Assembly: GCA_945897885.1 (NCBI GenBank)
Contig: CAMDGU010000017.1
Span: 1 to 49,231, forward strand
Source: Chitinophaga pinensis
GTDB taxonomy: Bacteria; Bacteroidota; Bacteroidia; NS11-12g; UBA9320
Length of the DNA: 49,231 bases
Direction of reading: 5' to 3'
A program made the translations under genes and the position numbers. Under the pieces are notes generated by a model, which was not told the DNA's origin, did not search any database, and saw only the letters and a program-made list of their open reading frames with translations. Position 1 is the stretch's first letter, and each line of letters opens with the position of its first letter. This document shows, piece after piece, positions 7,848 through 26,863 of this stretch.

Positions 7848-8996
7848 TTGTCATTACAAATTGATTCCAAACTACCCAATACCGGTATCACCATTTTTAC
7901 AGAAATGAGTGGGCTTGCCAAGCAATATAATGCTGTAAATCTTTCGCAGGGATTCCCTGATTTTGAGTGTTCAGCAGAATTGCGTGAAGCTTTAACAAAA
8001 GCTATGAACGATGGGTACAACCAATATGCCCCCATGCCGGGTATCATACAGTTAAGGGAAACCATTTCTGCTAAAACAGAAGCTTTATACGGAAAAGTTT
8101 ATAATCCTGAATCTGAAATTACCATTGTTCCCGGAGCAACATTGGCTTTGTTTACGGCAATTACAGCAATAGTGCATCCTGGCGACGAGGTAATTGTGAT
8201 AGAACCGGCCTATGATTGTTACGTTCCGGCAATAGAGCTTTGCGGGGGTATAGCCATTTACAGCAGTTTACAATATCCCATTTTTAGTATCAACTGGGAG
8301 GAAATCGAATCGTTGGTAACATCCAAAACCAAAGTGATAATTATCAATTCGCCTCAAAATCCGGGTACATCAGTAATTAATACGAATGATTTGGAACGAT
8401 TAGCTAAAATAACCCGTAATACCAATATTATTGTTATAAGTGATGAAGTTTATGAGCATATTATTTTTGATGGCGCCAAGCATCATAGTATAGCATTAAA
8501 TGAAGAATTGGCCCAACGAAGTATCATAATTTCATCCTTCGGAAAAACATACCATGTTACTGGATGGAAAACAGGTTATGTGTTGGCTCCCGATCCATTG
8601 ATGAAAGAATTTAGGAAAGTTTATCAATACAATGCATTCTGTTCCTTTGCTCCAGCTCAATGGGCATTTAATACCATGCTTCAAAATCCTGAAACTTATT
8701 TATCTGTTTCATCATTTTATCAAGCCAAGCGTGATAAAATGGAAGCATTATTAGCTCCATCTAAATTTAAAGTTTTGCCATCTAAAGGGTCTTATTTTCA
8801 GTTGTTGGATTATTCTGCTTTTTCAATTGAAAGTGACTATGAATTGGCCAAACGACTTACCATAGAGCACAAAATTGCAATGATTCCACTATCTTCGTTT
8901 TACCATGATAAAAAGGATAATAAGCTGCTGAGGATTTGTTTTGCCAAGCAGTATGAAACATTGGAAAATGCGGCAGAAATATTAAACACTTTATAA
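7848..8996 (+). CDS. PLP-dependent aminotransferase, methionine/glutamine (YbdL-like) type
   Basis: A 382-residue fold-type I aminotransferase. The N-terminus has the NLSQGFPDF motif typical of methionine aminotransferase/kynurenine aminotransferase-like enzymes. NSPQNPGTS, the SDEVYEHI aspartate region and the PLP-binding lysine K233 (in SFGKTYHVTGWKTGY) are all present. The start is TTG at 7848; no in-frame ATG lies close upstream and the reading begins correctly for the family. An omega-amidase-type hydrolase follows 77 bases downstream. This pairing is known for transaminases that use glutamine and release alpha-ketoglutaramate. The likely role is conversion of ketomethiobutyrate to methionine in salvage, but substrate specificity is inferred. 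Confidence 0.85.
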   Translation: MSLQIDSKLPNTGITIFTEMSGLAKQYNAVNLSQGFPDFECSAELREALTKAMNDGYNQYAPMPGIIQLRETISAKTEALYGKVYNPESEITIVPGATLALFTAITAIVHPGDEVIVIEPAYDCYVPAIELCGGIAIYSSLQYPIFSINWEEIESLVTSKTKVIIINSPQNPGTSVINTNDLERLAKITRNTNIIVISDEVYEHIIFDGAKHHSIALNEELAQRSIIISSFGKTYHVTGWKTGYVLAPDPLMKEFRKVYQYNAFCSFAPAQWAFNTMLQNPETYLSVSSFYQAKRDKMEALLAPSKFKVLPSKGSYFQLLDYSAFSIESDYELAKRLTIEHKIAMIPLSSFYHDKKDNKLLRICFAKQYETLENAAEILNTL

Positions 8997-9073
8997 AAAA
9001 CGAATGCCACTAATAATGACGAATAAAACAAATCCAACCAATCACCATTTCAACTTTTTTTAACCAAATATCA

Positions 9074-9874
9074 ATGAAAAGCCAGCACTCTGAAGAATTA
9101 AGCATTGCCCTTATACAACCCGATACCCTTTGGGAAAATAAGGAAGATAATTTAACACATTTAACTACCCACATTGATAAATTAAAAGATGAACACCCTG
9201 TTGTAAATATTATTATAATGCCCGAAATGTTTACCACCGGATTTACCATGAATCCAGAACCCTTTGCGGAAACAATGGATGGGGCAACGGTAGAGTGGAT
9301 GCGTGAAATAGCCACCGAGCAAGAGTTAGCCATTTGCGGCAGCATAATAATTCAAGAAAAAGGAAAATTTTATAACCGCTTTATTTTTGTAAAACCAAAT
9401 GGTGGAATAAACTTTTATGATAAAAAACATCTGTTTGGATATGCCGGTGAAAATGAAAAGTACACGGCAGGAAACAAAAATATTACGATTGATTACAAAG
9501 GTTGGAGAATAAACCCTTTTGTTTGTTATGACCTACGTTTCCCTGTATGGTGCCGCAATGTAAATGATGCTGATATTATACTGTATGTCGCTAACTGGCC
9601 CGAAATGCGAGTTGCTCATTGGCAAAAACTTTTGCCTGCCAGAGCTATTGAAAATCAGTGTTTTGTTATAGGTAATAATCGGGTGGGAACAGATTTTAAT
9701 AACTACAAATACACTGGCCAAAGTTGTGCTATAAATCCATTGGGAAATTCAATTGCTAGCATGGGAGACAAGGAAGGTTATGCATTATTTAAACTTGAAA
9801 AATCTGAAATAGAAAGTATTCGAGCAAAAATTCCGTTTTTTAAAGACAGAGACCTATTTCAGTTTATTGATTAA
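9074..9874 (+). CDS. Nitrilase-superfamily omega-amidase (YafV/Nit2-like)
   Basis: A 266-residue carbon-nitrogen hydrolase with the full catalytic triad: Glu51 (MPEMFTTGF), Lys117 (YDKKHLF) and Cys151 (VCYDLRFP). The motif set and length match omega-amidases, which hydrolyse alpha-ketoglutaramate to 2-oxoglutarate and ammonia. The aminotransferase gene directly upstream would make that substrate when it uses glutamine as amino donor, so the two probably work together in a cytosolic methionine/glutamine transamination pathway. The coupling is inferred from family and context. Confidence 0.85.
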   Translation: MKSQHSEELSIALIQPDTLWENKEDNLTHLTTHIDKLKDEHPVVNIIIMPEMFTTGFTMNPEPFAETMDGATVEWMREIATEQELAICGSIIIQEKGKFYNRFIFVKPNGGINFYDKKHLFGYAGENEKYTAGNKNITIDYKGWRINPFVCYDLRFPVWCRNVNDADIILYVANWPEMRVAHWQKLLPARAIENQCFVIGNNRVGTDFNNYKYTGQSCAINPLGNSIASMGDKEGYALFKLEKSEIESIRAKIPFFKDRDLFQFID

Positions 9875-9919
9875 TTCTACTCTAATAAAAAATATATAAA
9901 TTGCACAAAATTTAAAACC

Positions 9920-10417
9920 ATGAAATCAATTTTTAAACTTACCTCTTTAATAGCAATTGCAGCTATATTAAGTCTTACTTGTTGCAAGGATGAAGAAACG
10001 GGGCCAGCACCTGATACTAGAACAAAAACTCAATTAATGATTGCATCGCCATGGAAATGGACTGCCAGTGCTTGTGATGTAGAAATTGATGTGGATGGAA
10101 AAGACGGTGCATCAAAAGACATTTATGGCCAATACCCAGCCTGTTTTAAGGATGATTTATATACCTTCAAAGCTGATTCAACAACAACAGAAGCAAGCAA
10201 TGTAAAGTGCATTACTGAAGCTGCATCTTACAAAAATACATGGATTTTTACTAACGGTGAAAAGAACCTTCAATGGAAAGGTAAGGATTTTAAAACCAGA
10301 CAATATTTGGCGAGGGATTATACAATTCTTGAATTGACTGGTGATAAGCTGGTACTAAAATACAATGAAACAGCAGGAACCACAGTTTATGTTATAACGA
10401 ATACCTACAATCACTAA
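9920..10417 (+). CDS. Lipocalin-like lipoprotein (DUF5004-type)
   Basis: A 165-residue lipoprotein. The signal peptide ends in a lipobox-like LSLTCC, with lipidation expected at Cys21 or Cys22, and an acidic DEE follows. The mature part has a Trp-containing start (SPWKWTA) and alternating beta-strand segments ending in LELTGDKLVLKY, the pattern of small lipocalin-like Bacteroidota lipoproteins. Four cysteines in the mature chain could form disulfides. It is probably membrane-anchored on the periplasmic or outer face. It stands alone, with a terminator directly after it. Function unknown. Confidence 0.65.
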   Translation: MKSIFKLTSLIAIAAILSLTCCKDEETGPAPDTRTKTQLMIASPWKWTASACDVEIDVDGKDGASKDIYGQYPACFKDDLYTFKADSTTTEASNVKCITEAASYKNTWIFTNGEKNLQWKGKDFKTRQYLARDYTILELTGDKLVLKYNETAGTTVYVITNTYNH

Positions 10418-10440
10418 AAAAATATAGAATAAATTAAAAA

Positions 10441-10471
10441 GGCCATTTCAGAATTGAAATGGCCTTTTTTT
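10441..10471 (+). terminator. Rho-independent terminator
   Basis: A perfect 10-bp stem (10441-10450 with 10455-10464, loop gaat) is followed by seven T. It lies 23 bases after the lipoprotein gene's stop. Confidence 0.9.
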
Positions 10472-10540
10472 ATCTAAAAATTAATTCCTTTTGTCATCAA
10501 TATAAACCTTTCAATAAAAAATTGAACCTTTATTTGCACC

Positions 10541-12430
10541 ATGAAATTTCAACCTCTAAAAACTGTTACTTTAAGCCTAAGTTTATTTATGATTGGTATT
10601 AATACCTACGGACAAAAATCCATACCATTAAAAGATTTTTTTAAGAATCCCAAGAAAAGCGGATACCAAATTTCACCTGATGGAAAGTACATTTCCTATT
10701 TAGGACCTTATAAAAAAAGGATGAACATTTTTGTTAAACCTTTAGAGGGTAAAACAGCGAAACGCTTAACCAGCGTAACGGATAGAGATTTAGGGGGATA
10801 CTTCTGGAAATCAGGTTCACGTTTGGTTTATTTAAAGGATAATGGAGGGGATGAAAACTTTCACCTTTACGCTGTAAATGTGGATGGTTCTAATTTAAAG
10901 GATTTAACACCTTTTGATGGCGTAAAAGCTGATTTTGTGGATGTGTTGGAAGACAACGACAACGAAATGTTAATCCAGCTTAACAAAGACAATCGCGAAA
11001 TATTTGATGTTTACCGATTGAATATAAATACCGGAGAGATGACCAAAATTGCTCAAAATCCCGGTAATATTACCGGTTGGGTAACTGACCACGATGGCAA
11101 ATTGAGAATTGCTATTACTACGGACGGTACTAATTCCAGTATGCTTTACCGTGAAACAGAAGCAGATGATTTTAAAATTGTTATTACCACTGACTTTAAG
11201 GAATCCGTAAATCCATTATTCTTTGATTTTGATAACAAAAACCTTTTTGCAAGCTCAAATATTGGAAGGGATAAATTGGCCATTGTTAAAATGGATCCTG
11301 CTACCGGTAAAGAAATTACAAACCTTTTTGAACACCCGGATGTGGATGCAGGAAATTTATCCTACTCGAGAAAACGTAAAGTTTTAACTGCCATAACATT
11401 TACAACATGGAAAAAACAACGTAAATTTTTGGATGGTTCTACCTCGGATATGTTTAGCAACCTTGAGAAATTACTTCCTGGTTATGAAATAGCCATCACC
11501 TCCTATACCAAAGATGAAAACACCTTTATAGTAAGAACTTACAGCGACAAAACTTTGGGAGGTTACTATATTTATACCTTATCAACTAATAACATTACTT
11601 CAATTGGTGAAGTTAGCCCATGGCTTAAGGAAGACCAAATGGCTGACATGAAACCAATAACTTTTGTAACAAGAGATGGCCAAATTCTTAACGGATATTT
11701 AACCTTACCAAAGGGTAAAGACCCTAAAAACTTACCGGTTGTTATAAATCCGCATGGTGGCCCTTGGGCAAGAGATAACTGGGGTTTCAATCCAGAAGTT
11801 CAGTTTTTGGCAAACAGAGGGTATGCGGTGTTACAAATTAATTTTAGAGGCTCTACGGGTTATGGTCGTCAGTTTTGGGAAATGTCGTTTAAACAATGGG
11901 GCTTAACCATGCAAGATGATATTACCGATGGGGTAAACTATTTGATAAAAGAAGGAATAGCCGACCCAAAACGTGTAGCCATTTATGGTGCCAGCTATGG
12001 CGGATATGCTACACTTGCGGGTATTACTTATACTCCCGATTTATATGCCGCTGCTGTTGACTATGTTGGTGTTTCAAATCTTTTATCCTTTATGAATACC
12101 ATTCCTCCTTACTGGAAGCCTTATTTATCAATGATGTATGAAATGGTCGGAAATCCAATTGCTGATAAAGATTTATTGGTAGCTGCATCCCCTGTGTTTC
12201 ATGCTGATAAAATTAAAACGCCTTTGTTTGTGGCTCAGGGGGCTAAAGACCCTCGAGTAAATATCAACGAAAGCAATCAAATTGTAGAAGCTTTAAAAAA
12301 ACGTGGAGTAGCGGTGGAATATATGGTTAAAGAAAATGAAGGACATGGTTTTAGCAACGAAGAAAACCAGTTTGATTTTTATAAAGCCATGGAAAAATTC
12401 CTAAAGAAACATTTAGAAGTTAAAAATTAG
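10541..12430 (+). CDS. Exported S9-family prolyl oligopeptidase/dipeptidyl peptidase
   Basis: A 629-residue serine peptidase with an N-terminal signal sequence (cleavage near NTYGQ). Residues about 35-370 form a beta-propeller with repeated YLKDNGG- and DHDGKL-like strands. From about 385 an alpha/beta hydrolase domain follows, with HGGP (oxyanion region), nucleophile Ser485 in GASYGGYA, Asp570 in AKDPRVN and His602 in EGHGF: a complete triad. Such enzymes release dipeptides or cleave oligopeptides in the periplasm. The gene has its own upstream region after a strong terminator. Confidence 0.9.
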   Translation: MKFQPLKTVTLSLSLFMIGINTYGQKSIPLKDFFKNPKKSGYQISPDGKYISYLGPYKKRMNIFVKPLEGKTAKRLTSVTDRDLGGYFWKSGSRLVYLKDNGGDENFHLYAVNVDGSNLKDLTPFDGVKADFVDVLEDNDNEMLIQLNKDNREIFDVYRLNINTGEMTKIAQNPGNITGWVTDHDGKLRIAITTDGTNSSMLYRETEADDFKIVITTDFKESVNPLFFDFDNKNLFASSNIGRDKLAIVKMDPATGKEITNLFEHPDVDAGNLSYSRKRKVLTAITFTTWKKQRKFLDGSTSDMFSNLEKLLPGYEIAITSYTKDENTFIVRTYSDKTLGGYYIYTLSTNNITSIGEVSPWLKEDQMADMKPITFVTRDGQILNGYLTLPKGKDPKNLPVVINPHGGPWARDNWGFNPEVQFLANRGYAVLQINFRGSTGYGRQFWEMSFKQWGLTMQDDITDGVNYLIKEGIADPKRVAIYGASYGGYATLAGITYTPDLYAAAVDYVGVSNLLSFMNTIPPYWKPYLSMMYEMVGNPIADKDLLVAASPVFHADKIKTPLFVAQGAKDPRVNINESNQIVEALKKRGVAVEYMVKENEGHGFSNEENQFDFYKAMEKFLKKHLEVKN

Positions 12431-15772: not shown

Positions 15773-15787
15773 TTGTTTAATAAAAAA

Positions 15788-16237
15788 ATGCAAAGTTTAT
15801 TTGATACAAAAACCAACGAGGAGATAATTAACCGTATAAACGCACTTATGGTAGATAGCAAAAATGAATGGGGAAAAATGAATGTTTCTCAAATGCTGAG
15901 ACATTCGCAACAGCCCTTATTGGTGGCCTTTGGTGATAAAAAACTAAAACGAGGATTGATGGGGATTCTGTTTGGCAACATGGCTAAAAAAGCATTCTTA
16001 AAACCCGGAGACTTTAAAAAAAACCTACCAACCGACCCTAGTTTTTTGGTAAAAGACCAAAAAGAATTTGAGGAAGAAAAACAAAAACTTATTGAACTGG
16101 TAAAACGATTTGCAGCTTCAGGCCCAGGCGGTATTAGCAAAGACCCACATCCTTTTTTTGGGAAACTAACTGTGGACGAATGGGATACCTTGCAAATAAA
16201 ACACTTGGACCACCACTTGAGGCAGTTTGGGGTTTAG
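15788..16237 (+). CDS. DUF1569 (DinB-like fold) protein
   Basis: A 149-residue protein starting at ATG 15788; an in-frame TTG at 15773 directly after the hicB stop is possible but less likely. The sequence fits DUF1569: an N-terminal MQSLFDTKTNEEIINRIN, the W-G-KMNVSQMLRHSQ region with a putative metal-binding His, HPFFGKLTVDEWD, and the C-terminal KHLDHHLRQFG with further histidines. This is a DinB/YfiT-like four-helix bundle with a presumed metal site. The cellular role is unknown. A terminator follows. Confidence 0.8.
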   Translation: MQSLFDTKTNEEIINRINALMVDSKNEWGKMNVSQMLRHSQQPLLVAFGDKKLKRGLMGILFGNMAKKAFLKPGDFKKNLPTDPSFLVKDQKEFEEEKQKLIELVKRFAASGPGGISKDPHPFFGKLTVDEWDTLQIKHLDHHLRQFGV

Positions 16238-16247
16238 ATAAAAAAAA

Positions 16248-16279
16248 AGAGCCGCGATAGTGAATATCGCGGCTCTTTT
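16248..16279. terminator. Bidirectional rho-independent terminator
   Basis: A perfect 12-bp stem (16248-16259 with 16265-16276, loop gtgaa) has an A run on the left and T on the right. It sits between convergent genes ending at 16237 and 16297. Confidence 0.9.
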
Positions 16280-16296
16280 GGTTATTGGCATTTTGT

Positions 16297-17118
16297 TTAC
16301 TTTATTTCAACCTTTTGGGTAGCTTGCGTGCCATTATCAAAAAACATAGTTACAAAATACAATCCTGATTTAAGACTTTCTACATTTAATTCATCCTCCC
16401 CTATATTAGCCATTACAAGCCTTCCTGTATAATCAAACAACTGAATTTTCTTAGGTTTTAAAAATGATTCATACTTAAATTTTAAAATATCAGAAGCAGG
16501 GTTAGGATATACTTCAAATGTAGATTTTGAAATTTGGTTAGTTGAAGCATAAACCCCACTTAAAAAAATCTCATCAATTACTGCCATCTTATTAAATGAA
16601 TCATAAGGATGCATAGGATTGTAATGGAATGTTATTGTCATGCTATCCACCTTCTGCCATAAGGTGTCATTTTTATCTGGCAATTGATCAGATGATCCTA
16701 TAATATTTGTGGCATCTTTATAACAATAAATTGGGGCAATAAAATAGTGAATTGATTTTTTATTTTTATCAAACAGATTATAGCTGTAAGTGAAGTAATC
16801 ACCTAAACTGTCATTTGAGAAAAAAGAGAACCTAAAATGAATGTCATTTGAAGGAATTGCTTTAAAAGTCTTTGATAAATTAAATCCGTAATTCCAGTTA
16901 AATGTAGTATCATAGAAAATGAAAAATGAATCCTTTGTGTTTTTATAAAAGGTTTTACCATTCCAGGAAAAATGATTGGTGTGAACCATCACTCCATTAT
17001 TTTTTATTTTCCATCCTTTTATAGATTGTTTGGTGTCAAAGTTTTCTAGAATGAACTTTTGACCCAATGAATTAAAATTGAGAAGTGTAAGAATTGCTAA
17101 TATTAAACTGTTTTTCAT
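16297..17118 (-). CDS. Secreted protein with type A T9SS sorting domain
   Basis: A 273-residue exported protein with a signal peptide (cleavage near FNSLGQ). A beta-rich body of about 170 residues shows no domain I recognise. From about residue 205 there is a typical T9SS type A C-terminal domain: VYPNPASDILKFKYES, KKIQLFDYTGRLV, LKSGLYFVTM and a final KVEIK. The protein should be exported by the type IX system and either released or anchored to the surface. It stands alone between a convergent terminator and a two-gene unit upstream. Confidence 0.85.
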   Translation of the reverse strand: MKNSLILAILTLLNFNSLGQKFILENFDTKQSIKGWKIKNNGVMVHTNHFSWNGKTFYKNTKDSFFIFYDTTFNWNYGFNLSKTFKAIPSNDIHFRFSFFSNDSLGDYFTYSYNLFDKNKKSIHYFIAPIYCYKDATNIIGSSDQLPDKNDTLWQKVDSMTITFHYNPMHPYDSFNKMAVIDEIFLSGVYASTNQISKSTFEVYPNPASDILKFKYESFLKPKKIQLFDYTGRLVMANIGEDELNVESLKSGLYFVTMFFDNGTQATQKVEIK

Positions 17119-17148
17119 AATTTTATAAACGTGATAGTACTAGTTAAA

Positions 17149-17622
17149 TTATATCAACTCCTCCACTTCCTTCTGATAATCAAACTGCAAATCTTCGTGC
17201 AGTTTTTCGATAGCTTTATTAATTTTTATTAGTTGTTGGTCATATAGATTAGTGAGCAAGGTATTGCTGGTATTGGCATATCCTGCGGTTTTCATTTTCA
17301 GGCTAAAGTAAATTAACAGTTCCACCTCTGTTTGTTTTATCCCTGAAAATTTGATGTATTTAGTAACCGACTTTAAAATTTTGCGCAGCGATTTTTTAAC
17401 GATATACAGATTGCCTTTGGGCATGGTTTCAAATTGTTCGTCTATCGTTTCTTTTACTTTTTCAACAAAAGCAGCTTCATCATGGGCTTCAAAAAGAAGG
17501 TAACTCAGCAATTCTTTATTTTCCCGTTTATAGCGCGATAGCCGCAAACATAATTCGGCCAATTGCTCAGGCAGTAAAAAATTTAACTCTTTTTTTATGT
17601 CGTTTAACTTGGGGGAAAGCAT
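17149..17622 (-). CDS. Hypothetical alpha-helical protein (possibly DUF6155-like)
   Basis: A 157-residue soluble, highly charged, largely helical protein with no signal peptide or membrane segment. Lys/Glu/Leu-rich helices include SLRKILKSVTKYIKFSG. I do not recognise it with confidence; the layout recalls DUF6155. Its ATG (17620-17622) overlaps the stop of the upstream membrane-protein gene (TAATG), so the two are translationally coupled. Confidence 0.6.
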   Translation of the reverse strand: MLSPKLNDIKKELNFLLPEQLAELCLRLSRYKRENKELLSYLLFEAHDEAAFVEKVKETIDEQFETMPKGNLYIVKKSLRKILKSVTKYIKFSGIKQTEVELLIYFSLKMKTAGYANTSNTLLTNLYDQQLIKINKAIEKLHEDLQFDYQKEVEELI

Positions 17623-18409: not shown

Positions 18410-18483
18410 TTATTTTTGCCAGTAACCCTTGGTGTAAACTCTGAGAACCTCCCTGCAATATCTTAATTTCGCAATTGAAAAAC

Positions 18484-19086
18484 ATGATTCAAATATCTGA
18501 AAATAAATATCAAAACCTGTTGCCCAAAGACGGGGAAGTTTTTTATCTGCCGGATTTTTTTACCAAGGAAGAAAGTAAAGTATTTTATAATGCCTTGCTT
18601 CAAAACATAGAATGGCAGCAGGATAAAATAAAACTCTTTGGAAAAACACACGATGTTCCAAGGCTTACGGCCTTATATGGCAATGCTGATAAACCCTACA
18701 CCTATTCAGGCATTACTATGAAACCGACTGCCTGGCTGCCCGAACTTTTGGAAATAAAAAAGAAAATAGAAACGGTGGCACAAGTTGATTTCACTACCGT
18801 ACTGCTCAATCTTTATAGAACAGGTAAGGATAGCATGGGCTGGCACAGCGATGATGAAAAAGAATTGGGATTAAACCCTCTAATCGTTTCGGTAAGTTTT
18901 GGGGCCACCCGCATTTTTAAATTGCAGCATAACAACAACAAAAGTTTAAGACACAGTCTGGAGCTTACGGATGGAAGTTTACTTGTAATGCAAGGCCAAA
19001 CGCAACATTTTTGGAAGCATGCCATTCCTAAAACTTCAAAAATTACAGAGCCAAGGATTAATCTAACGTTTCGGGTAATTCAATAA
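18484..19086 (+). CDS. alkB: AlkB-like 2-oxoglutarate/Fe(II) DNA-repair dioxygenase
   Basis: A 200-residue protein (ATG 18484; a TTG three codons upstream is also in frame). It has the AlkB signature: NLYRTGKDSMGWHSDDE with iron ligands His121 and Asp123, third ligand His179 (WKHAIPK), and the 2-oxoglutarate-binding arginines R191 and R197 in RINLTFR. Substrate-lid segments such as PRLTALYGN are also present. AlkB-type enzymes oxidatively remove methyl groups from 1-meA and 3-meC in DNA or RNA. It lies next to an SOS-like repressor and two translesion polymerases, which fits a DNA-damage role. Confidence 0.9.
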   Translation: MIQISENKYQNLLPKDGEVFYLPDFFTKEESKVFYNALLQNIEWQQDKIKLFGKTHDVPRLTALYGNADKPYTYSGITMKPTAWLPELLEIKKKIETVAQVDFTTVLLNLYRTGKDSMGWHSDDEKELGLNPLIVSVSFGATRIFKLQHNNNKSLRHSLELTDGSLLVMQGQTQHFWKHAIPKTSKITEPRINLTFRVIQ

Positions 19087-19113
19087 TTTCAATTTTAACA
19101 ATCTTTTAGTTCT

Positions 19114-19221
19114 GCTCCTTAGGAGCTACCTGTTTGTAACAATTGAATTTGTATTTATTTTTTTGCCCCGAAGGGGCTACCCAATTGCCACCAAATTTTT
19201 TATGGGTAGCTCCTACGGAGC
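19114..19221. repeat. Cluster of three REP-like short palindromes
   Basis: Three 13-base palindromes of the form GC(C/T)CC-n3-GG(G/A)GC lie at 19114-19126, 19165-19177 and 19209-19221. Each is followed or preceded by TAcc(c) or gggTA. The second and third face each other (gctaccc ... gggtagc), so they could pair into a larger hairpin. The same family recurs at 26470-26691. They sit between the convergent alkB-like and S24 repressor genes. Confidence 0.75.
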
Positions 19222-19229
19222 ATCTGAAA

Positions 19230-20027
19230 TTATTTCATCCGCCCCAATTTTTCATCAATCCCTGTAAGTTTATAAAGCACCAGTTCATTCGTACTAAGCT
19301 CATCGGGCATTTCATTGGTAAAATAATATTTGAATTTCCAGATTTCTTTTACCTCCCCTATTTTTACTTCATAAGGGGCAAACAAAGGATTGAGCGATTT
19401 TAAAAGCAGGTTTTGTTTTTTGCGTATCTGGTTATAAATAATTTTAAATACAGCTCCGTCGTTTTCAGTAAGTACAATACAGGCATCACCATCTTTCACG
19501 CCATCCCAGTCCTGCACAAACTCACCAATCACATACGAACCCGATTTGATGGGCAGCATGGAATCTCCCTCTATTTGAAAAGCCCTGTACTTGCGGTCAT
19601 CCGATAAAAACGGCAACTGAAAAACAGGTAGCTTTTGGATATACTGCGGGTCATTATAACCTGCCGTGTATCCAGCCCGCGCTTTAATGGGAACCAATTC
19701 AATATTTTCTTTATTCTCACTGTTTACCGTAGTGGCCAGCACCCGCAGCCTGCCGCCTGATATGTATACATCCTCACCGGCCTCCAGCTGCCGCAGGTGC
19801 AGTTCGCCCAGCTTTGATAAGTCAACGGTGAGCAGGGTATCAATGGTAAATTTAAAAAATTCTGCCATTTTCATTAGTGGCTCTATGGGCGGGGTGGTAT
19901 TGCCCAATTCGTAACTGGCCAGTTGGGTTCGTTTTATTCCCAAATTGTCGGAAAGTTGTTGTTGACTTTGTTTTAGTCTGGTTCTCAGGAACTTTAAATT
20001 ATTGTTAAAAAAAAACTGGTTTGCCAT
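19230..20027 (-). CDS. XRE-family S24 self-cleaving repressor (LexA/CI-like)
   Basis: A 265-residue regulator. Residues about 10-60 form a helix-turn-helix of the XRE type (SQQQLSDNLGIKRTQLASYE). The C-terminal half is an S24 peptidase domain with nucleophile Ser156 (EGDSMLP), general-base Lys195 (AVFKII) and a candidate Ala118-Gly119 cleavage site (KARAGYTAG). LexA/CI-type repressors of this kind cleave themselves when RecA filaments form. The gene diverges from dinB, followed by a DnaE-type polymerase, so it probably controls this damage-tolerance cluster and itself. Two perfect dyads lie directly upstream of its start. Confidence 0.88.
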   Translation of the reverse strand: MANQFFFNNNLKFLRTRLKQSQQQLSDNLGIKRTQLASYELGNTTPPIEPLMKMAEFFKFTIDTLLTVDLSKLGELHLRQLEAGEDVYISGGRLRVLATTVNSENKENIELVPIKARAGYTAGYNDPQYIQKLPVFQLPFLSDDRKYRAFQIEGDSMLPIKSGSYVIGEFVQDWDGVKDGDACIVLTENDGAVFKIIYNQIRKKQNLLLKSLNPLFAPYEVKIGEVKEIWKFKYYFTNEMPDELSTNELVLYKLTGIDEKLGRMK

Positions 20028-20037
20028 TTATTTTATT

Positions 20038-20075
20038 GTTATAATTGATAACAAAATTATGTTATTTTAAATAAC
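20038..20075. promoter_or_regulatory. Two dyad operator candidates for the S24 repressor
   Basis: GTTAT-AATTG-ATAAC (20038-20052) and GTTATTT-T-AAATAAC (20061-20075) are perfect inverted repeats sharing the GTTAT/ATAAC arms, with centres 23 bases apart. They begin 11 bases upstream of the repressor ATG, where a repressor would block its own promoter. They may also act on the divergent dinB promoter. Confidence 0.7.
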
Positions 20076-20090
20076 AAAACAAACGAAAAA

Positions 20091-20135
20091 TTATCGGTTA
20101 GCTATATTTCGGTTGGTAGAGACACCAACCGATAA
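20091..20135. repeat. Overlapping inverted repeats
   Basis: TTATCGGTT (20091-20099) pairs with AACCGATAA (20127-20135). CGGTTGGT (20110-20117) pairs with ACCAACCG (20124-20131). The two hairpins share the same right arm and so exclude each other. They lie between the operator pair and dinB. Confidence 0.75.
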
Positions 20136-20175
20136 GAAAAAAATGGGAAACAGATTGAGAGCAGGGAAAATTTCA

Positions 20176-20267
20176 ATTGAACCACTTAGACAAATAGTTA
20201 AGTAAGGATTCACATAGGGAATTGCCTATGTGGTTTTCTATGTTTCTATGCTCCTATGTGGTTCAAT
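20176..20267. repeat. Nested dyads upstream of dinB
   Basis: ATTGAACCAC (20176-20185) is the inverse of GTGGTTCAAT (20258-20267). Inside it CACATAGG (20211-20218) is the inverse of CCTATGTG at 20225-20232 and again at 20253-20260. Together they form a roughly 90-base palindromic block before the dinB start. Confidence 0.75.
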
Positions 20268-20343
20268 TTTAATATTGTTTATGCAATCGCTCATCTCATT
20301 ATAACCATATGCATCATCTGCGTTCCAATTATTTAAATGTGCC

Positions 20344-21528
20344 ATGAACCGCAACATCGTCCATATTGACCTCGACTCTTTCTTCGTATCGGTAGAAAGA
20401 TTAACCAATCCTGCATTGGTGGGTAAGCCTGTGTTGGTAGGCGGCACCAGCGACCGGGGTGTGGTGGCATCGTGCAGTTATGAGGCCCGAAGCTTTGGCA
20501 TTCACTCCGCCATGCCTATGAAAATGGCGAGGCAACTGTGCCCCGAAGCCATTATTGTGAGAGGCGACCACGGCGAATACAGCAAGTATTCCGACATTAT
20601 TACCGAAATAATAAGCGAGGATGTGCCACTTTATGAAAAACCTTCCATTGATGAATTTTATATAGACCTTACCGGAATGGACAAGTTTTTTGGGTGCTAC
20701 AAACTGGCCACCGAACTGAGGCAAAAAATTACGAGGAATACAGGATTGCCTATTTCGTTTGCCCTATCCACCAACAAAACCGTATCGAAAGTAGGCACCG
20801 GCGAAGCCAAACCCAACGGGCAAAAGGAAATCCCGTTTGGCACCGAAAAAGGATTTTTAGCGCCTTTATCTATTCGCAAAATCCCCATGGTGGGTGATAA
20901 AACCTATCAGCTGCTACGGGGAATGGGAATAGCCTGGATACACACCTTACAGGAAATGCCTATGGAGCTGATGCAACAGGTATTGGGCGAAAACGGAACG
21001 GTAATCTGGCGCAAAGCCAATGGGATTGATAATTCGCCGGTGGTGCCTTACTCAGAGCGCAAGTCTATTAGTACCGAACGCACCTTTGACAAAGATACCA
21101 TTGATGTAAAAGCTTTAAAAAATTTGCTGATTGGCATGACAGAGAAACTGGCGTTTCAATTGCGGAGCGAAGACAAACTGACAGCTTGTCTAACAGTAAA
21201 AATCCGCTACTCCGATTTTAATACCTATACCATGCAAGCCCGCATTGCCTATACGGCTCTCGATCATGTGCTGATAGAAAAGGTAAACACATTGTTTGAC
21301 AAGCTTTACCAAAAACGAATGCTGATTCGCCTAATCGGAATCCGGTTTAGCCATTTGGTGCAAGGCGGCCACCAATACAGTTTGTTTGAAGAAACCATAG
21401 AACAGATAAACTTGTATCAGGCCATGGATAAAATACGGAAACGCTATGGCAAAAACTCCGTGAGCCGTGCCGCAGGTATGGATTTTGAGCCACATGATTT
21501 TAATCCGTTTAATGGGGGGAAGAAATGA
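20344..21528 (+). CDS. dinB: DNA polymerase IV (DinB, Y family)
   Basis: A 394-residue Y-family polymerase with intact catalytic acids: Asp9 (HIDLDSFF) and Asp103-Glu104 (SIDEFYIDL), plus a steric-gate Phe14. The fingers motif SYEARSFGIHSAMP, the HhH region (IRKIPMVGDKT) and the little-finger domain (ERTFDKD onward) are in normal order. QYSLF at 344-348 is a beta-clamp-binding motif. Because the catalytic acids are present it is a true polymerase, not an ImuB-type accessory subunit. The divergent S24 repressor and the downstream DnaE-type gene make this a translesion-synthesis cassette. Confidence 0.93.
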   Translation: MNRNIVHIDLDSFFVSVERLTNPALVGKPVLVGGTSDRGVVASCSYEARSFGIHSAMPMKMARQLCPEAIIVRGDHGEYSKYSDIITEIISEDVPLYEKPSIDEFYIDLTGMDKFFGCYKLATELRQKITRNTGLPISFALSTNKTVSKVGTGEAKPNGQKEIPFGTEKGFLAPLSIRKIPMVGDKTYQLLRGMGIAWIHTLQEMPMELMQQVLGENGTVIWRKANGIDNSPVVPYSERKSISTERTFDKDTIDVKALKNLLIGMTEKLAFQLRSEDKLTACLTVKIRYSDFNTYTMQARIAYTALDHVLIEKVNTLFDKLYQKRMLIRLIGIRFSHLVQGGHQYSLFEETIEQINLYQAMDKIRKRYGKNSVSRAAGMDFEPHDFNPFNGGKK

Positions 21529-21594
21529 GACGATTTGGAAATTTGGAGATTTGAAAATGAAAGAAAATTGAAAATAACGGACAAAAGTTGGTCG

Positions 21595-21729
21595 AAGCCG
21601 CTGTCCCCCTTGTGCGATTGGATGTGTGGTGGCGAAGGGGGTAGGGGGATTATTTTTAGGAATTTGAAATTTAAAAATACTTATAATAGGAAACGCATCC
21701 CCCTCCCCCCTTTATAAGGGGGACGGCTT
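21595..21729. repeat. Nested inverted repeats between dinB and dnaE
   Basis: The outer arms (21595-21611 and 21716-21729, AAGCCG..GTCCCCCTT against AAGGGGGACGGCTT) match with a 2-base bulge. The inner G-rich and C-rich arms (about 21635-21650 and 21697-21712) match with one mismatch. The block fills most of the 246-base gap and looks like a small palindromic mobile element or repeat rather than a simple terminator. Confidence 0.7.
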
Positions 21730-21774
21730 ACGCACGAGTAATTTAATTCACCAGTCATAATTCACCATTAACCA

Positions 21775-24759
21775 TTGCTCCTCAACTGCCACACATATTA
21801 CAGCTTTTGCTACGGCACTTTTTCAATAGAAGGTCTGATACTTGAGGTACAAAAAAACGGGTATGATGCCTTTGTACTAACCGATATTAATAATACCTCG
21901 GCTTGTTTGGATGCTATTCGTTTATCCCAAACCGAAGAGTATAAAGATAAAATAAAACCCATTGTTGGTATAGATTTCAGAAACAATGCCCAACAACAGT
22001 ACATAGGAATTGCCAGAAATAACGAAGGGCTTCAGGAACTGAACGAACACCTTTCTACCCATTTACACAGTGGTGAAAATTTTGATGCTATTGCCCCCGA
22101 ATTTAATAATGCCTTTATCATTTATCCGCTCAATGCTTACAAAAACTGGAAGCTAAGAGATAATGAATTTATCGGTGTTTCGATAGCTGACCTGGCCACA
22201 TTGCCTTTTTTATCGGCAAAACATCAGGCTAATAAGTTGGTAGTCCTTCACACGGTAACTTTTACCGGTAAAAGCCGCTTCAATGCCCACCGTTTGTTGC
22301 GGGCTATTGATACCAATACGATATTGAGCAAACTGCCATTGGAACAGCAAGCCAAAGGAACCGAGGTGATGCTCCCTAAAGCGGAACTCTATGCTGCATT
22401 TGCCGGCTACCCCACTATCATAGCCAATACCGAACGGCTTATAAACGATTGCTCCATAAAATTTGAATACGGCAAACTGGCCAATAAAAATTTAAAGCAT
22501 TACACGGGCAGCATTGCCGATGATGTCAACCTGTTGCGAAGCGAGTGTTTAAAAGGGTTACATTACCGGTACCCCAACCCTACTCCCGAAATTTTGCAAC
22601 GCATAGACAAAGAGTTGGACGTTATTTCCCAACTCAATTTCTCTTCCTATTTTTTGATAAATTGGGATATTGTGAACTATGCCCAACGCCAAGGCTATTA
22701 CTATGTGGGCCGCGGTAGCGGAGCCAATAGCATTTTGGCTTATTTGTTACGAATTACGGATGTTGACCCCATTGAACTGGATTTGTATTTTGAACGGTTT
22801 ATAAATATTTACCGGCAAAATGCTCCTGATTTTGATATGGATTTTTCGTGGACGGACCGGGATGATATTACCAATTATATTTTTAAAACCTTTAACCGAA
22901 ATAATAATGTGGCCTTGTTGGGGGCTTACAATACCTTTCAGCATGATGCGGTCATCAGGGAATTGGGAAAAGTGTTTGGGTTGCCGCCCGGCGAAATTGA
23001 CCGGTTGCAACTAGCGGCTAAATACCCCAACCCCAAAGTGGACGACATTGGGAAACTGGTGATACAGTACAGCCATTTAATTAAAGGCTTCCCCAGCCAT
23101 TTAACGGTGCATTCCTGTGGTATCATCATTTCCGAAAATCCCATTACCTGCTATACCGCCACCAGTATGATGCCCAAAGGCCACCCTACCACACAGTTCA
23201 GTATGGTAGAAGCTGAGGATGTGGGCTTGTATAAATTTGATATTCTTAGCCAGCGGGGTTTGGGAAAAATTAAGGATTGTATCTCAATCGTTAAAGAAAA
23301 TAAAGGCGTTGACTTGGACATCCATAATGTGGCTGCGTTTAAAAAAGATGAGGCAGTAAAAAAACTGCTGCGAGTGGGCAATACCATTGGGTGTTTTTAT
23401 GTGGAATCACCCGCCATGCGGATGTTGCTAGCCAAGTTGCAGGCCGATGATTATCTGCGATTGGTGGCAGCCAGTTCTATTATACGGCCGGGTGTGGCCA
23501 AAAGCGGTATGATGCGGGAGTACATTATACGCTACCGCGATGAAACCCTTCGGGAAAAAGCCAGAGCGGCCATGCCTGCTTTGTATGATTTATTAAAAGA
23601 AACCTACGGCGTAATGGTGTATCAGGAAGATGTGCTGAAAATAGCCCATTATTTTGCCGGCCTCACATTGGCCGAAGCTGATGTACTAAGGCGGGGCATG
23701 TCGTGGAAATTTAAAGACCGGGTAGAATTTAAGGTAATAAAAGAGAATTTTTTTGATAACTGCCGCACCAAAGGCTACGACATGAAACAGGTGGCCGACA
23801 TTTGGACACAGATTGAAACCTTTGCCAATTTCGCGTTTTCCAAAGGCCACTCGGCCAGTTATGCGGTGGAGAGTTATCAGGCTCTTTTTCTTAAAGCCTA
23901 TTATCCGCTGGAGTATTTGGTAGCCACGCTTAATAATGGCGGCGGGTTTTACCGGCAGGAACTCTACATCCACGAAGCCCGTATGCACGGGGCCACTATT
24001 GTAGCACCCTGCCTGAACAATAGCAGTGCGCTTTGCACCATACAGGGCAACACCATTTATCTTGGGCTGTGTATGATTGGCGAATTGCAACACCAAAACA
24101 TTGTGCAAATAGTGGAAGAACGGCAGCAAAACGGACCGTTTCGCGATATGTATGATTTTGCCAAACGGGTGCCGCTGTCCATTGAGCAAATGCGGCTGCT
24201 TATACGAGCTAAAGCATTTCAGTTTACCGGCCGCAATAAAAAGGAACTGCTATGGGAAATACACGCCATGCTGCAACCTGTAAAAACTCAAAAGCCCACC
24301 AAACAACTGTTTGAAACCGAAGTAAAAACCTGGAAACTCCCCACGCTTATTGACTCCAAAGTGGATGAGGCCTTTGATGAAATTGAATTACTGGGATTTT
24401 CCTTGTGTTCGCCGTTTGAATTATTAAAAGATACAATGCCTTGCCTGCTTACGGCTGCCGATTTAAAAACGTATCTACATAAAAGAGTAATGATAGTGGG
24501 CTATTTGATTACCGTAAAATACACCCGAACCAGCAAAGGCGACCGCATGTATTTTGGCACCTTTATAGATACCGAAGGTAGGTGGATTGATACGGTACAT
24601 TTTCCGCCAAGTGCCAAAGCCTACCCCTTTACCGGGCCGGGCTGTTATGAGCTAAAAGGCAAAGTAGTGGAAGAGTATGATTTTGTAAGTATAGAGGTGG
24701 AGTATATGAAACGCTTGGCTACGGTGGACAGAGAAACGATTACTTCTGATATGGTTTAA
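21775..24759 (+). CDS. dnaE2: DnaE-type error-prone DNA polymerase III alpha subunit
   Basis: At 994 residues this is shorter than replicative DnaE (about 1160) and close to DnaE2/ImuC translesion polymerases. The start is TTG at 21775, giving the expected opening MLLNCHTYYSF. The PHP domain (1 to about 220) has lost metal ligands: the HxH motif reads NCH and the usual LTDH is LTDI. The polymerase palm carries PDFDMDFS with catalytic Asp354 and Asp356, after GRGSGANSILAYLL. HhH and OB domains follow, with the OB segment near VMIVGYLITVKYTRTSKGD. Downstream of dinB and the repressor, it probably extends from lesions. Its 3' end overlaps the convergent hicA relic and is repeated twice further on. 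Confidence 0.88.
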   Translation: MLLNCHTYYSFCYGTFSIEGLILEVQKNGYDAFVLTDINNTSACLDAIRLSQTEEYKDKIKPIVGIDFRNNAQQQYIGIARNNEGLQELNEHLSTHLHSGENFDAIAPEFNNAFIIYPLNAYKNWKLRDNEFIGVSIADLATLPFLSAKHQANKLVVLHTVTFTGKSRFNAHRLLRAIDTNTILSKLPLEQQAKGTEVMLPKAELYAAFAGYPTIIANTERLINDCSIKFEYGKLANKNLKHYTGSIADDVNLLRSECLKGLHYRYPNPTPEILQRIDKELDVISQLNFSSYFLINWDIVNYAQRQGYYYVGRGSGANSILAYLLRITDVDPIELDLYFERFINIYRQNAPDFDMDFSWTDRDDITNYIFKTFNRNNNVALLGAYNTFQHDAVIRELGKVFGLPPGEIDRLQLAAKYPNPKVDDIGKLVIQYSHLIKGFPSHLTVHSCGIIISENPITCYTATSMMPKGHPTTQFSMVEAEDVGLYKFDILSQRGLGKIKDCISIVKENKGVDLDIHNVAAFKKDEAVKKLLRVGNTIGCFYVESPAMRMLLAKLQADDYLRLVAASSIIRPGVAKSGMMREYIIRYRDETLREKARAAMPALYDLLKETYGVMVYQEDVLKIAHYFAGLTLAEADVLRRGMSWKFKDRVEFKVIKENFFDNCRTKGYDMKQVADIWTQIETFANFAFSKGHSASYAVESYQALFLKAYYPLEYLVATLNNGGGFYRQELYIHEARMHGATIVAPCLNNSSALCTIQGNTIYLGLCMIGELQHQNIVQIVEERQQNGPFRDMYDFAKRVPLSIEQMRLLIRAKAFQFTGRNKKELLWEIHAMLQPVKTQKPTKQLFETEVKTWKLPTLIDSKVDEAFDEIELLGFSLCSPFELLKDTMPCLLTAADLKTYLHKRVMIVGYLITVKYTRTSKGDRMYFGTFIDTEGRWIDTVHFPPSAKAYPFTGPGCYELKGKVVEEYDFVSIEVEYMKRLATVDRETITSDMV

Positions 24760-24989
24760 TTTTGCTGAATCAATTTTAAATATTCTTCAGGAGACACTTC
24801 AATTTGTTTTAAAATTTCTCGAATAAGTGGTCTGCTCAAGTCAACTTTTCCATGATGCGGAAGGGTTGTGTATCTGCCATCAGCATGCCTGTAAAATATA
24901 TGGCTACCTTAATGTCTGACAATTTTAAAGCCAAGTTCTAATAATATTTTTTCAAATGTTTTGGCATTAATGACAGGTAATTTACTCAT
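24756..24989 (-). pseudogene. hicA: HicA toxin gene broken by a nonsense codon
   Basis: The frame from ATG 24987-24989 encodes a recognisable HicA: SKLPVINAKTFEKILLEL, then RH-stop-GSHIFYRH, then TLPHHGKVDLSRPLIREI and a C-terminal helix. TAA at codon 27 (24909-24911) sits exactly where family members often carry Gln before GSH, so a CAA-to-TAA change would explain it. The rest of the frame, with the catalytic GSH histidine, is intact to 24756. The start overlaps the hicB stop by 4 bases, and the end overlaps the dnaE stop codon. Confidence 0.85.
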
Positions 24990-25213
24990 ATATCAATCAT
25001 TACCTGTTGCATACCTACAAATTCCGGTAAATTAGCTAATTCCTCATCGCTTAATTCTTCTAAACAAAGTTCAATGACTTCTTTTAGATTAATATTTAGG
25101 TCGTCTAAACTTTTAGCCTGAGTATGGGCTCCGGGTAATGACGGAACATAGGCTACATACATTCCGCTATCTCTATCACGTTCAATTTGAGCATTAAATT
25201 GATAATGTTTCAT
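24986..25213 (-). CDS. hicB: HicB antitoxin, partner toxin disabled
   Basis: A 75-residue HicB-type protein: YQFNAQIERDRDSGMYVAYV, then PSLPGAHTQAKSLDDLNINL, a helix with EVIELCLEEL and an acidic end. It is complete. It precedes the broken hicA in the order hicB-hicA, opposite to the intact module at 15375. With the toxin interrupted, this antitoxin is orphaned unless some readthrough occurs. Confidence 0.85.
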   Translation of the reverse strand: MKHYQFNAQIERDRDSGMYVAYVPSLPGAHTQAKSLDDLNINLKEVIELCLEELSDEELANLPEFVGMQQVMIDI

Positions 25214-25273
25214 AAAACAAAGTTAGCTTGTTTTCAATAAAAAAGCATACCCAATTGTATTGCTTATTTTTTA

Positions 25274-25480
25274 GATACGGAAGGGCGGTGGATTGATACC
25301 GTTCATTTTCCACCAAGTGCCAAACAATACCCCTTTACCGGGCTGGGCTGCTATGAGCTAAAGGGTAAAGTGGTGGAAGAATATGATTTTGTAAGTATAG
25401 AAGTGGAGTATATGAAACGGCTAACTACGGTGGATAGGGAAACGATGGATAAGGAGGTGAAAGAGGCTGGGGTGGTATAA
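25274..25480 (+). pseudogene. Second copy of the dnaE 3' end
   Basis: 68 codons plus stop in one open frame reproduce the last part of the upstream polymerase (from GRWIDTVHFPP to VEYMKRLxTVDRET), then end with a different, longer tail (MDKEVKEAGVV). Over 57 comparable codons I count 16 synonymous and only 3 amino-acid differences. So this piece diverged while still part of a working gene, not as a dead duplicate. No start or promoter is present. It lies just beyond the hicBA module. Confidence 0.85.
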
Positions 25481-25506
25481 TGTTGATATCGAAGGGACGA
25501 TCTGCT

Positions 25507-25610
25507 GTCGCTCTGCCTCTGGCGAGTGACTTTATTAGCGTCCTCTGGTCAAAAGGGTTTTATAGAGGCCAAAGGCCATTTGGTTTGTCACTCGCCAGAG
25601 GCGAAGCGAC
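25507..25610. repeat. Long-armed palindrome (24-bp arms)
   Basis: The arms at 25507-25530 and 25587-25610 match at 22 of 24 positions, with a perfect 15-base core (CCTCTGGCGAGTGAC). The 56-base loop holds a smaller repeat (aggccaaaggcc). The surrounding 260-base gap up to 25740 has no gene. The block looks like a REP/MITE-like element rather than a terminator, since no T run follows. Confidence 0.75.
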
Positions 25611-25740
25611 TGCGGACAGGCAAGCGAGTGCAGAGATTCTTTATATCTTCATAAACCTCTTTGTGAATTTCCTGAACTGTCATTAAGGGAACTATCATCT
25701 TTGTGCTAATATTTTTCTAAATAGTTTTAAAATTATTCAC

Positions 25741-26355
25741 CTATTGCATAGTAGCCACCAGGTCAATCGGTATCGCTTTAAAATCCTCTATTGCACCCAG
25801 GTTTAGCCAATGGCTTTCGTAATCGGGCGGCAGTATTACCGGCATCCGCTTTTTGGTATTGTGTATTTCGGCCATCAGGTCATTGGCTGCGGTGGTTACC
25901 ATGCTGTAGGTGCGGTAAGTTTCGCCGGTTTGTTTGTTGGTGTAATCGCTGTATACACCCGCAAAGGCAAACAGTTCCTGATTGGGCAGGGTGATAAAGT
26001 ACTTTTCCTTTTGCTTGCCTTTTTCATCCAGCCATTTCCATTCATAAAACCCGTCGGCAATAATTAGGCAACGGTTTTTTACATAATTTTTAAAGGAAGA
26101 CAATTCGGTAATGGTTTCAATTTTAGCATTCAGGGTGTTTTTTTGAAACGAGGTGTCCTTGGCCCAAAACGGAACGAGTCCCCATTGTGCCAGGGTTATA
26201 AAATCACTGTCGTCCACCGGAATAATAGGCGTAAAATTATGACTAAAGCCAAGGTTAACCGCTGTGGGATGAAACTCCAACCCGGCTTTAAACTGCCGGT
26301 TAAAATGCTTTTGAATATCCTGTTGTTCTTTTTGAATACTGGTGGAGTAGCACAT
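25741..26355 (-). CDS. SOS response-associated peptidase (SRAP; YedK/HMCES family)
   Basis: A 204-residue SRAP protein. The catalytic Cys2 directly follows the initiator Met (MCYSTS). The conserved Asn (TLNAKIET), Glu in DGFYEWKW and His in EIHNTKKRMPVIL are all present. SRAP proteins form a thiazolidine crosslink between Cys2 and abasic sites in single-stranded DNA, shielding them from error-prone processing. Its position beside translesion polymerases matches the SOS association that gave the family its name. It lies on the opposite strand, between the second and third copies of the dnaE tail. Confidence 0.92.
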   Translation of the reverse strand: MCYSTSIQKEQQDIQKHFNRQFKAGLEFHPTAVNLGFSHNFTPIIPVDDSDFITLAQWGLVPFWAKDTSFQKNTLNAKIETITELSSFKNYVKNRCLIIADGFYEWKWLDEKGKQKEKYFITLPNQELFAFAGVYSDYTNKQTGETYRTYSMVTTAANDLMAEIHNTKKRMPVILPPDYESHWLNLGAIEDFKAIPIDLVATMQ

Positions 26356-26404
26356 TTTTTTAAACCTTTAATGATTCAAAAATACTAAAGAATTTGATTT
26401 TGCG

Positions 26405-26461
26405 GATTGAGAAACGGAATACATGAAACGGCTGGAAACGGTGGACAGGGACAAATTATAA
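26405..26461 (+). pseudogene. Third, very short copy of the dnaE 3' end
   Basis: The 15 codons EYMKRLETVDRDKL-stop match the end of the polymerase (EYMKRLATVDRET). Bases upstream to about 26405 still align weakly with a small indel. No longer coding stretch precedes it. It marks the far side of the SRAP gene and is directly followed by the palindromic repeat cluster. Confidence 0.75.
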
Positions 26462-26469
26462 ATTGGGTA

Positions 26470-26691
26470 GCCCCTACGGGGCAAAAAAACACAAATTGCT
26501 TTTTCTACAAATAGGTAGCCCTTACAGGGCATTGGGTTGATAATTTTTACAATTGCTTTTTAATACCTTATGGTAATTGTGCTCTCAGCCCTAAAGGGAA
26601 TTAAATTGAAGATTTTTTTAAAATGAAATGCCGCATAGCGGCTAACTGTTTGTAGAAGATTATTTGAATCTAATTTATGCCCCGTAGGGGC
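26470..26691. repeat. Array of REP-like short palindromes
   Basis: Palindromes of the form GCCCC-n3-GGGGC lie at 26470-26482, 26518-26530, 26630-26642 and 26679-26691, with a degenerate one at 26588-26599. The first two are preceded by ggTA and the last is followed by TAccc, so the ends of the array face inwards. The loops and arms vary while pairing is kept (CCCCTACGGGG, CCCTTACAGGG, CCGCATAGCGG). The 420-base gap 26462-26881 otherwise holds only AT-rich DNA and a promoter box. Confidence 0.75.
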
Positions 26692-26863
26692 TACCCAAAT
26701 AGCGGAAGTATTAATACCATTTCATTTCCCCTTTACCGAAATAAAATAGTTTAGTGGATTTTTGCAAAAAAGACTTACTTTTTTGAATACTTAAAAACGA
26801 CTAGCGAAATAAATAGGAACATACCTTTAGATAATGCTATCTAATCGGAGATAAATCAATCTC

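Follow-up and report, generated by a model that had tools for sequence, protein, structure and literature searches.

The window analysed here, a 49,231-nt stretch of DNA, comes from a 3.0-Mb assembly of 126 contigs. Its near relatives are freshwater Bacteroidota metagenome bins, and the assembly looks like a metagenome bin itself; nearly all genomes used for comparison are metagenome assemblies. Pfam matches in the region 18475–26355 identify, from left to right, AlkB, an S24/LexA-like repressor, DinB, a 994-residue DnaE-type polymerase and an SOS response-associated peptidase (SRAP). The repressor gene (19230–20027, minus strand) contains HTH and Peptidase_S24 domains and marks the left end of the exchanged cassette. 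The dinB gene (20344–21528, plus strand) carries the IMS domain of the DNA polymerase IV family, and its product is 98–99% identical in amino acid sequence to those of two congeners of the window's genome, G006 (locus L039) and G004 (locus L040). It is followed by dnaE (21775–24759, plus strand), a C-family polymerase gene by Pfam and NCBIfam whose G006 and G004 alleles are 93% identical at the nucleotide level. The gene starts with TTG, which fits the conserved MLLNCHTYYS N-terminus. Two further congeners that are 99–100% complete have no match to this gene, so we regard its product as an accessory polymerase. The SRAP gene (25741–26355, minus strand) lies directly downstream of dnaE in both G004 and G006.

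The dnaE gene is a member of an S24/LexA-like repressor–dinB–dnaE–SRAP cassette. As in SOS mutasome cassettes, dinB and the accessory dnaE form an operon beside an S24 regulator, and the S24–dinB–dnaE order is found in many relatives. Of the published operator motifs, GGA-N5-TCC is absent between the repressor and dinB, and CTAA-N5-TTAG is absent from 20001–20400; LexA control of the cassette is therefore only putative. The position of SRAP varies among relatives. It lies between dinB and dnaE at seven other loci (L102, L103, L106, L112–L114 and L116) and just ahead of dinB on plasmid NZ_CP055155.1 (L161), which suggests that SRAP regularly accompanies the cassette; it may be a functional partner and not random cargo. 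Short palindromic repeats of the GTAGCCCCTACGGGGC type occur near both outer ends of the cassette (19125–19186, 26463–26487 and 26674–26698). They are REP-like, have further copies elsewhere in the genome and could possibly serve as portable homology.

The most conspicuous feature of the locus is that the 3′ end of dnaE occurs three times, with hicBA between copies 1 and 2 and SRAP between copies 2 and 3, as the first-pass annotation of the window had proposed. The locations given there hold, but the starts shift to 24562, 25268 and 26388 and the end of copy 2 to 25482, so that copy 3 is slightly longer. Copy 1 (24562–24759) is the current end of the gene and has an unusual C-terminus, DRETITSDMV. 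Copy 2 (25268–25482) forms a 179-nt direct repeat with it (24562–24740 versus 25268–25446, 87% identical), keeps the reading frame open until a stop of its own at 25480 with the C-terminus DRETMDKEVKEAGVV, and aligns with the true dnaE ends of two relatives up to 25481/25482. A recount agrees with the earlier figure of 16 synonymous and 3 amino acid changes over 57 codons; over 60 codons the numbers are 16 and 5. As at rhs loci, the intact gene is thus followed downstream by a detached end that is homologous to its own. The rhs arrangement of a non-homologous variable tip on a conserved core is not seen, however: the two ends are homologous alleles that differ strongly only in the last ~7–15 residues.

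Copy 3 (26388–26461, plus strand) is decayed. It is 75% identical to the dnaE end over 64 nt and is recovered by tblastn with an E-value of 9e-7; its 48 identities in 64 positions were reached in none of 1000 dinucleotide shuffles, the best of which gave 36. A decayed counterpart, 80% identical, is present in G006 (L039, 8926–8999), and none was seen in G004. Copy 3 is too short and decayed for placement in a tree, and the trees described below cover copies 1 and 2.

The cargo between copies 1 and 2 consists of two minus-strand genes. The stop codon of hicA (24756–24989) overlaps that of dnaE, and hicB (24986–25213) encodes a HicB-like antitoxin matched by the Pfam family HicB_lk_antitox. The hicA reading frame is interrupted by an in-frame stop in translation (LGFKIVRH*GSHIFYRH, the asterisk marking the stop), whereas hicB stays open. 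An intact homologue in G006 (L141, 9946–10170) matches HicA_toxin in Pfam, reads KVRQKGSHSFYRH and has unrelated genes on both sides. This is the sole other copy of the pair among 107 genomes, in which no donor with dnaE running directly into this hicBA was found. Pfam thus bears out the gene names assigned from the letters alone (C-family polymerase, HicB-like antitoxin, SRAP), with two refinements: dnaE is the accessory gene of an SOS cassette, and hicA is interrupted.

The origin of copy 2 is revealed by the congeners. In G006 and G004 the dnaE coding sequence is 93% identical to that of the window and runs directly into SRAP, without hicBA and without a second intact dnaE tail. Their dnaE C-termini, DRETMDTKVKEAGVV and DRETMDKEEKEAGVV, respectively, fit copy 2 and not copy 1. 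The end that is displaced in the window is therefore the attached end in other strains, as described for rhs, and copy 2 is the former dnaE end of the window's lineage. These data uphold the proposal that copy 2 evolved within a working dnaE, together with its prediction that strains lacking hicBA would end in copy 2.

A comparison of four alleles (copy 1, copy 2, G006 and G004) leads to the same conclusion. Across 59 codons, 23 nucleotides separate copy 1 from copy 2 and 19 separate copy 1 from G006; every other pair differs at 13. None of 10,000 bootstraps makes copies 1 and 2 the closest pair and 89% make them the most distant, which rules out a recent local duplication of the dnaE end in the window. 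Silent divergence between them is high (dS 0.71); G006 is the nearest allele to copy 2 at silent sites (dS 0.16). By our own count, eight sites that divide the alleles two against two oppose the pairing of copies 1 and 2, and one supports it. A tree places copy 1 with the G004 allele, and copy 2 outside the group of copy 1, G006 and G004, so copies 1 and 2 do not cluster, in line with the first-pass expectation; an AU test on 177 columns does not reject a clade of copies 1 and 2 (p = 0.11, not significant). Copy 2 is a true dnaE end of allelic origin and no recent local duplicate, and copy 1 is an imported allele.

Two tails derived from different alleles could also arise if reads of two strains, one with dnaE–hicBA and the other with dnaE–SRAP, had been merged in assembly, and a 126-contig assembly that resembles a metagenome bin, as do those of its near relatives, gives this explanation some purchase. 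We consider such a chimera highly improbable: copy 3 is common to two separately assembled genomes, the joint at 25268 is in unique sequence, and the same kind of scar recurs in other assemblies, one of them a 674-kb contig.

Of the 77 dnaE genes followed by 1 kb or more of sequence, five, that of the window included, have a detached tail. The cargo differs at each of the other four: MBL-fold, TetR and SocA-Panacea genes at L048, a Y1 transposase at L055, a PKD/T9SS protein at L071, and at L107 a SIR2–HerA defence pair (8661–12082) between dnaE and the displaced tail, where part of the next gene is duplicated too. The scar thus recurs independently with other cargo. Control genes gave no such tail among ~210 genes from 349 kb of the window's own genome and one doubtful partial tail among ~227 in six related genomes (~437 in total); the difference is significant (Fisher p = 4e-4) with the window itself counted as one of the five. 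Tandem paralogy was rejected as a general explanation, since matches outside dnaE in the own-genome control are paralogues that span most of the gene. The first gene downstream of dnaE belongs to 51 families in 69 loci, a figure that has no baseline but points to fast turnover at this junction. Detached tails are present in 3 of 81 genomes in a wider survey of the order, and a class sample of 138 genomes holds none besides that of the window. These surveys rule out an ancient phylum-wide arrangement, as the first-pass annotation had anticipated. Displaced dnaE tails are real but uncommon, and short remnants would escape the surveys.

The dnaE end is not the only gene end affected. L039 and L048 have a displaced repressor 3′ end, and the repeats at L079 and L092 involve the convergent neighbour. 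The dnaE 3′ end, seen earlier as a repeated entry point for cargo, is thus not the sole one. In L079 the neighbour is a ComM-like (Mg chelatase) gene whose tail adjoins dnaE (7964–8133 and 11465–12322). The ComM-like family is linked to natural transformation.

The layout of cargo between long direct repeats is also that expected from insertion with long target duplication, as for Helicobacter pylori restriction-modification genes, in which the two copies start out identical. Direct repeats of 63–306 bp do flank cargo that includes TA-like and SIR2–HerA genes, and at L048 the dnaE copies show no difference across 63 bp. Silent-to-replacement differences between remnant and live copy are 9:1 in L071, 14:0 in L079 (the ComM-like tail against its full copy) and 5:2 in L107; silent changes thus dominate in L071 and L079, and the pairwise distances between the two L071 copies and a third allele are roughly equal. 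Copies 1 and 2 of the window have diverged further than alleles from separate species, which refutes target duplication there unless gene conversion from another allele later overwrote copy 2. As an account of the locus it is improbable. At L048, and at L055, where the remnant has decayed from the live copy, local events are a possible origin.

Integrases insert at tRNA genes and some protein genes and can supply a replacement gene end. Site-specific integration of such an element into the dnaE 3′ end would preserve gene function and leave the displaced end downstream, both of which are observed. We give this explanation almost no weight. Each locus has its own left repeat edge, with no common core site, no integrase was identified in the cargo and only that of L055 holds a transposase, and the repressor and convergent neighbours are affected as well. 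The varying edges and the single transposase disfavour site-specific insertion and a fixed attachment site alike.

Species have exchanged the cassette more recently than the DNA around it. Among the three congeners, S24, dinB and dnaE have dS values of 0.27–0.67, compared with 0.74–3 for the upstream efflux, TolC and peptidase genes; at the nucleotide level S24–dinB–dnaE is 91–94% identical, and flanks and backbone are mostly 70–87% identical with some higher stretches. The genes left of AlkB (15783–17622; DUF1569 and others) are 94% identical to G006 and 88–90% to G004, so the tract exchanged with G006 reaches further left. An Adhaeribacter plasmid carries SRAP–dinB–dnaE near a replication gene, which indicates that vehicles exist and that such cassettes can travel. 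A search of viral contigs for a carrier of the dnaE end found nothing.

The three ends belong to layers of different age. The SRAP–copy 3 stretch is 82% identical to G006, like the backbone, and copy 2 belongs to the ~93% allele pool; copy 3, common to G006 within the near-backbone stretch, is therefore the older remnant. This order fits the earlier idea of stepwise replacement that leaves old tails behind like growth rings. The idea is largely supported, with copies 1 and 2 conforming to it and copy 3 plausibly doing so. It also included displacement of the whole gene at each step, but import of the gene's end alone would suffice, and the foreign stretch seems to start near the 5′ edge of the repeat. 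The window dnaE departs from G006 at about 24573, where the difference rises from 3.8% to 11.3% (permutation p = 0.008, for a hand-chosen region and with wide limits), although differences are already dense from about 24320. This change point adjoins the repeat start at 24562 and suggests that the last step brought only the dnaE end and hicBA, not a whole new dnaE.

Taken together, these observations probably reflect a stack of displaced 3′ ends at an SOS cassette exchanged among related freshwater Bacteroidota, built by one-sided homologous recombination coupled to illegitimate joining. At least twice, DNA from a related lineage would have recombined through homology in the dnaE end, bringing a dnaE 3′ end and whatever stood downstream of it in the donor, probably SRAP first and hicBA later. 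The other end would have joined inside the resident dnaE tail, without homology to the resident end. The new end would complete a working polymerase gene, and the resident end, pushed downstream, would become a silent, decaying remnant. The non-homologous joint is visible at 25268; the homologous joint is only suggested, near 24.3–24.57 kb. HFIR-like joining, the length of the tract replaced and the earlier arrival of SRAP as cargo are our inferences from this pattern. HFIR is known in competent bacteria, where it is rare and usually deletes resident DNA (PMC3240628).

The same tail–cargo–tail layout would result from Campbell-type integration, by a single crossover, of a circle carrying a dnaE end and cargo. 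Short repeats of variable length surround cargo at several loci, the resident sequence appears to be complete between copies 1 and 2, and circle integration is the published model for rhs C-terminal displacement (PMC2935791). Beyond roughly its 11th base, however, copy 2 resembles G006 and not copy 1, so that a crossover within the repeat would have had hardly any space. This argument, which depends on few sites, mildly favours HFIR, and we regard the circle as unlikely but deserving of serious consideration.

A broader reading is conceivable, which we offer tentatively: both outer ends of the cassette, at the 3′ terminus of dnaE and at that of the LexA-like repressor gene, may be recurrent docking points, with the mutagenesis module and linked toxin–antitoxin or defence genes passing as one unit between related bacteria. 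Were this true, the damage response and selfish or defence cargo would travel as a single recombining unit.

Displaced gene ends, known mainly from toxin loci, make it possible to read the order in which genes arrived by ordinary recombination, with no integrase involved. Their occurrence at an SOS polymerase shows that unrelated genes can be drawn in through homology to a conserved DNA-repair gene. They also suggest a simple genome-wide test for this kind of gene gain: a detached copy of a gene's own end whose silent-site divergence is at least at the level of alleles.

The closest parallels are rhs C-terminal displacement, for whose tips circle integration was proposed (Jackson et al. 2009, PMC2935791), and mafB silent cassettes. 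There, as here, newly arrived 3′ ends become joined to a conserved gene body, and old ends with a body piece of variable length stay downstream in stacks. Their displaced ends are variable toxin tips, however, and the exchange itself is selected; the dnaE locus displaces a conserved polymerase C-terminus and gains unrelated cargo (HicBA, SIR2–HerA, a Y1 transposase, a T9SS protein). Sequential displacement of Vibrio cholerae T6SS effector genes, for which HFIR was proposed (Kirchberger et al. 2017, PMC5361080), resembles our case in its stepwise 3′-end insertion and downstream shift of old genes, but whole, useful immunity genes are kept there and only gene-end scars here. Insertion with long target duplication (Nobusato et al. 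2000, cited in PMC1643837) likewise places cargo between long direct repeats of the target; the dnaE repeats are diverged alleles, not fresh duplicates, in the well-testable cases. The Bacteroidetes SOS regulon under a non-canonical LexA (PMC8565304, on regulation) and the ImuA–ImuB–DnaE2 mutasome share with this locus a dinB–dnaE operon, an S24, phage-repressor-like regulator and SRAP as SOS genes, and a search of the text of PMC8565304 turned up no account of cassette exchange or displaced ends. The dnaE locus thus works like rhs and T6SS effector displacement, yet is a member of neither system, because its ends are homologous alleles of a conserved enzyme.
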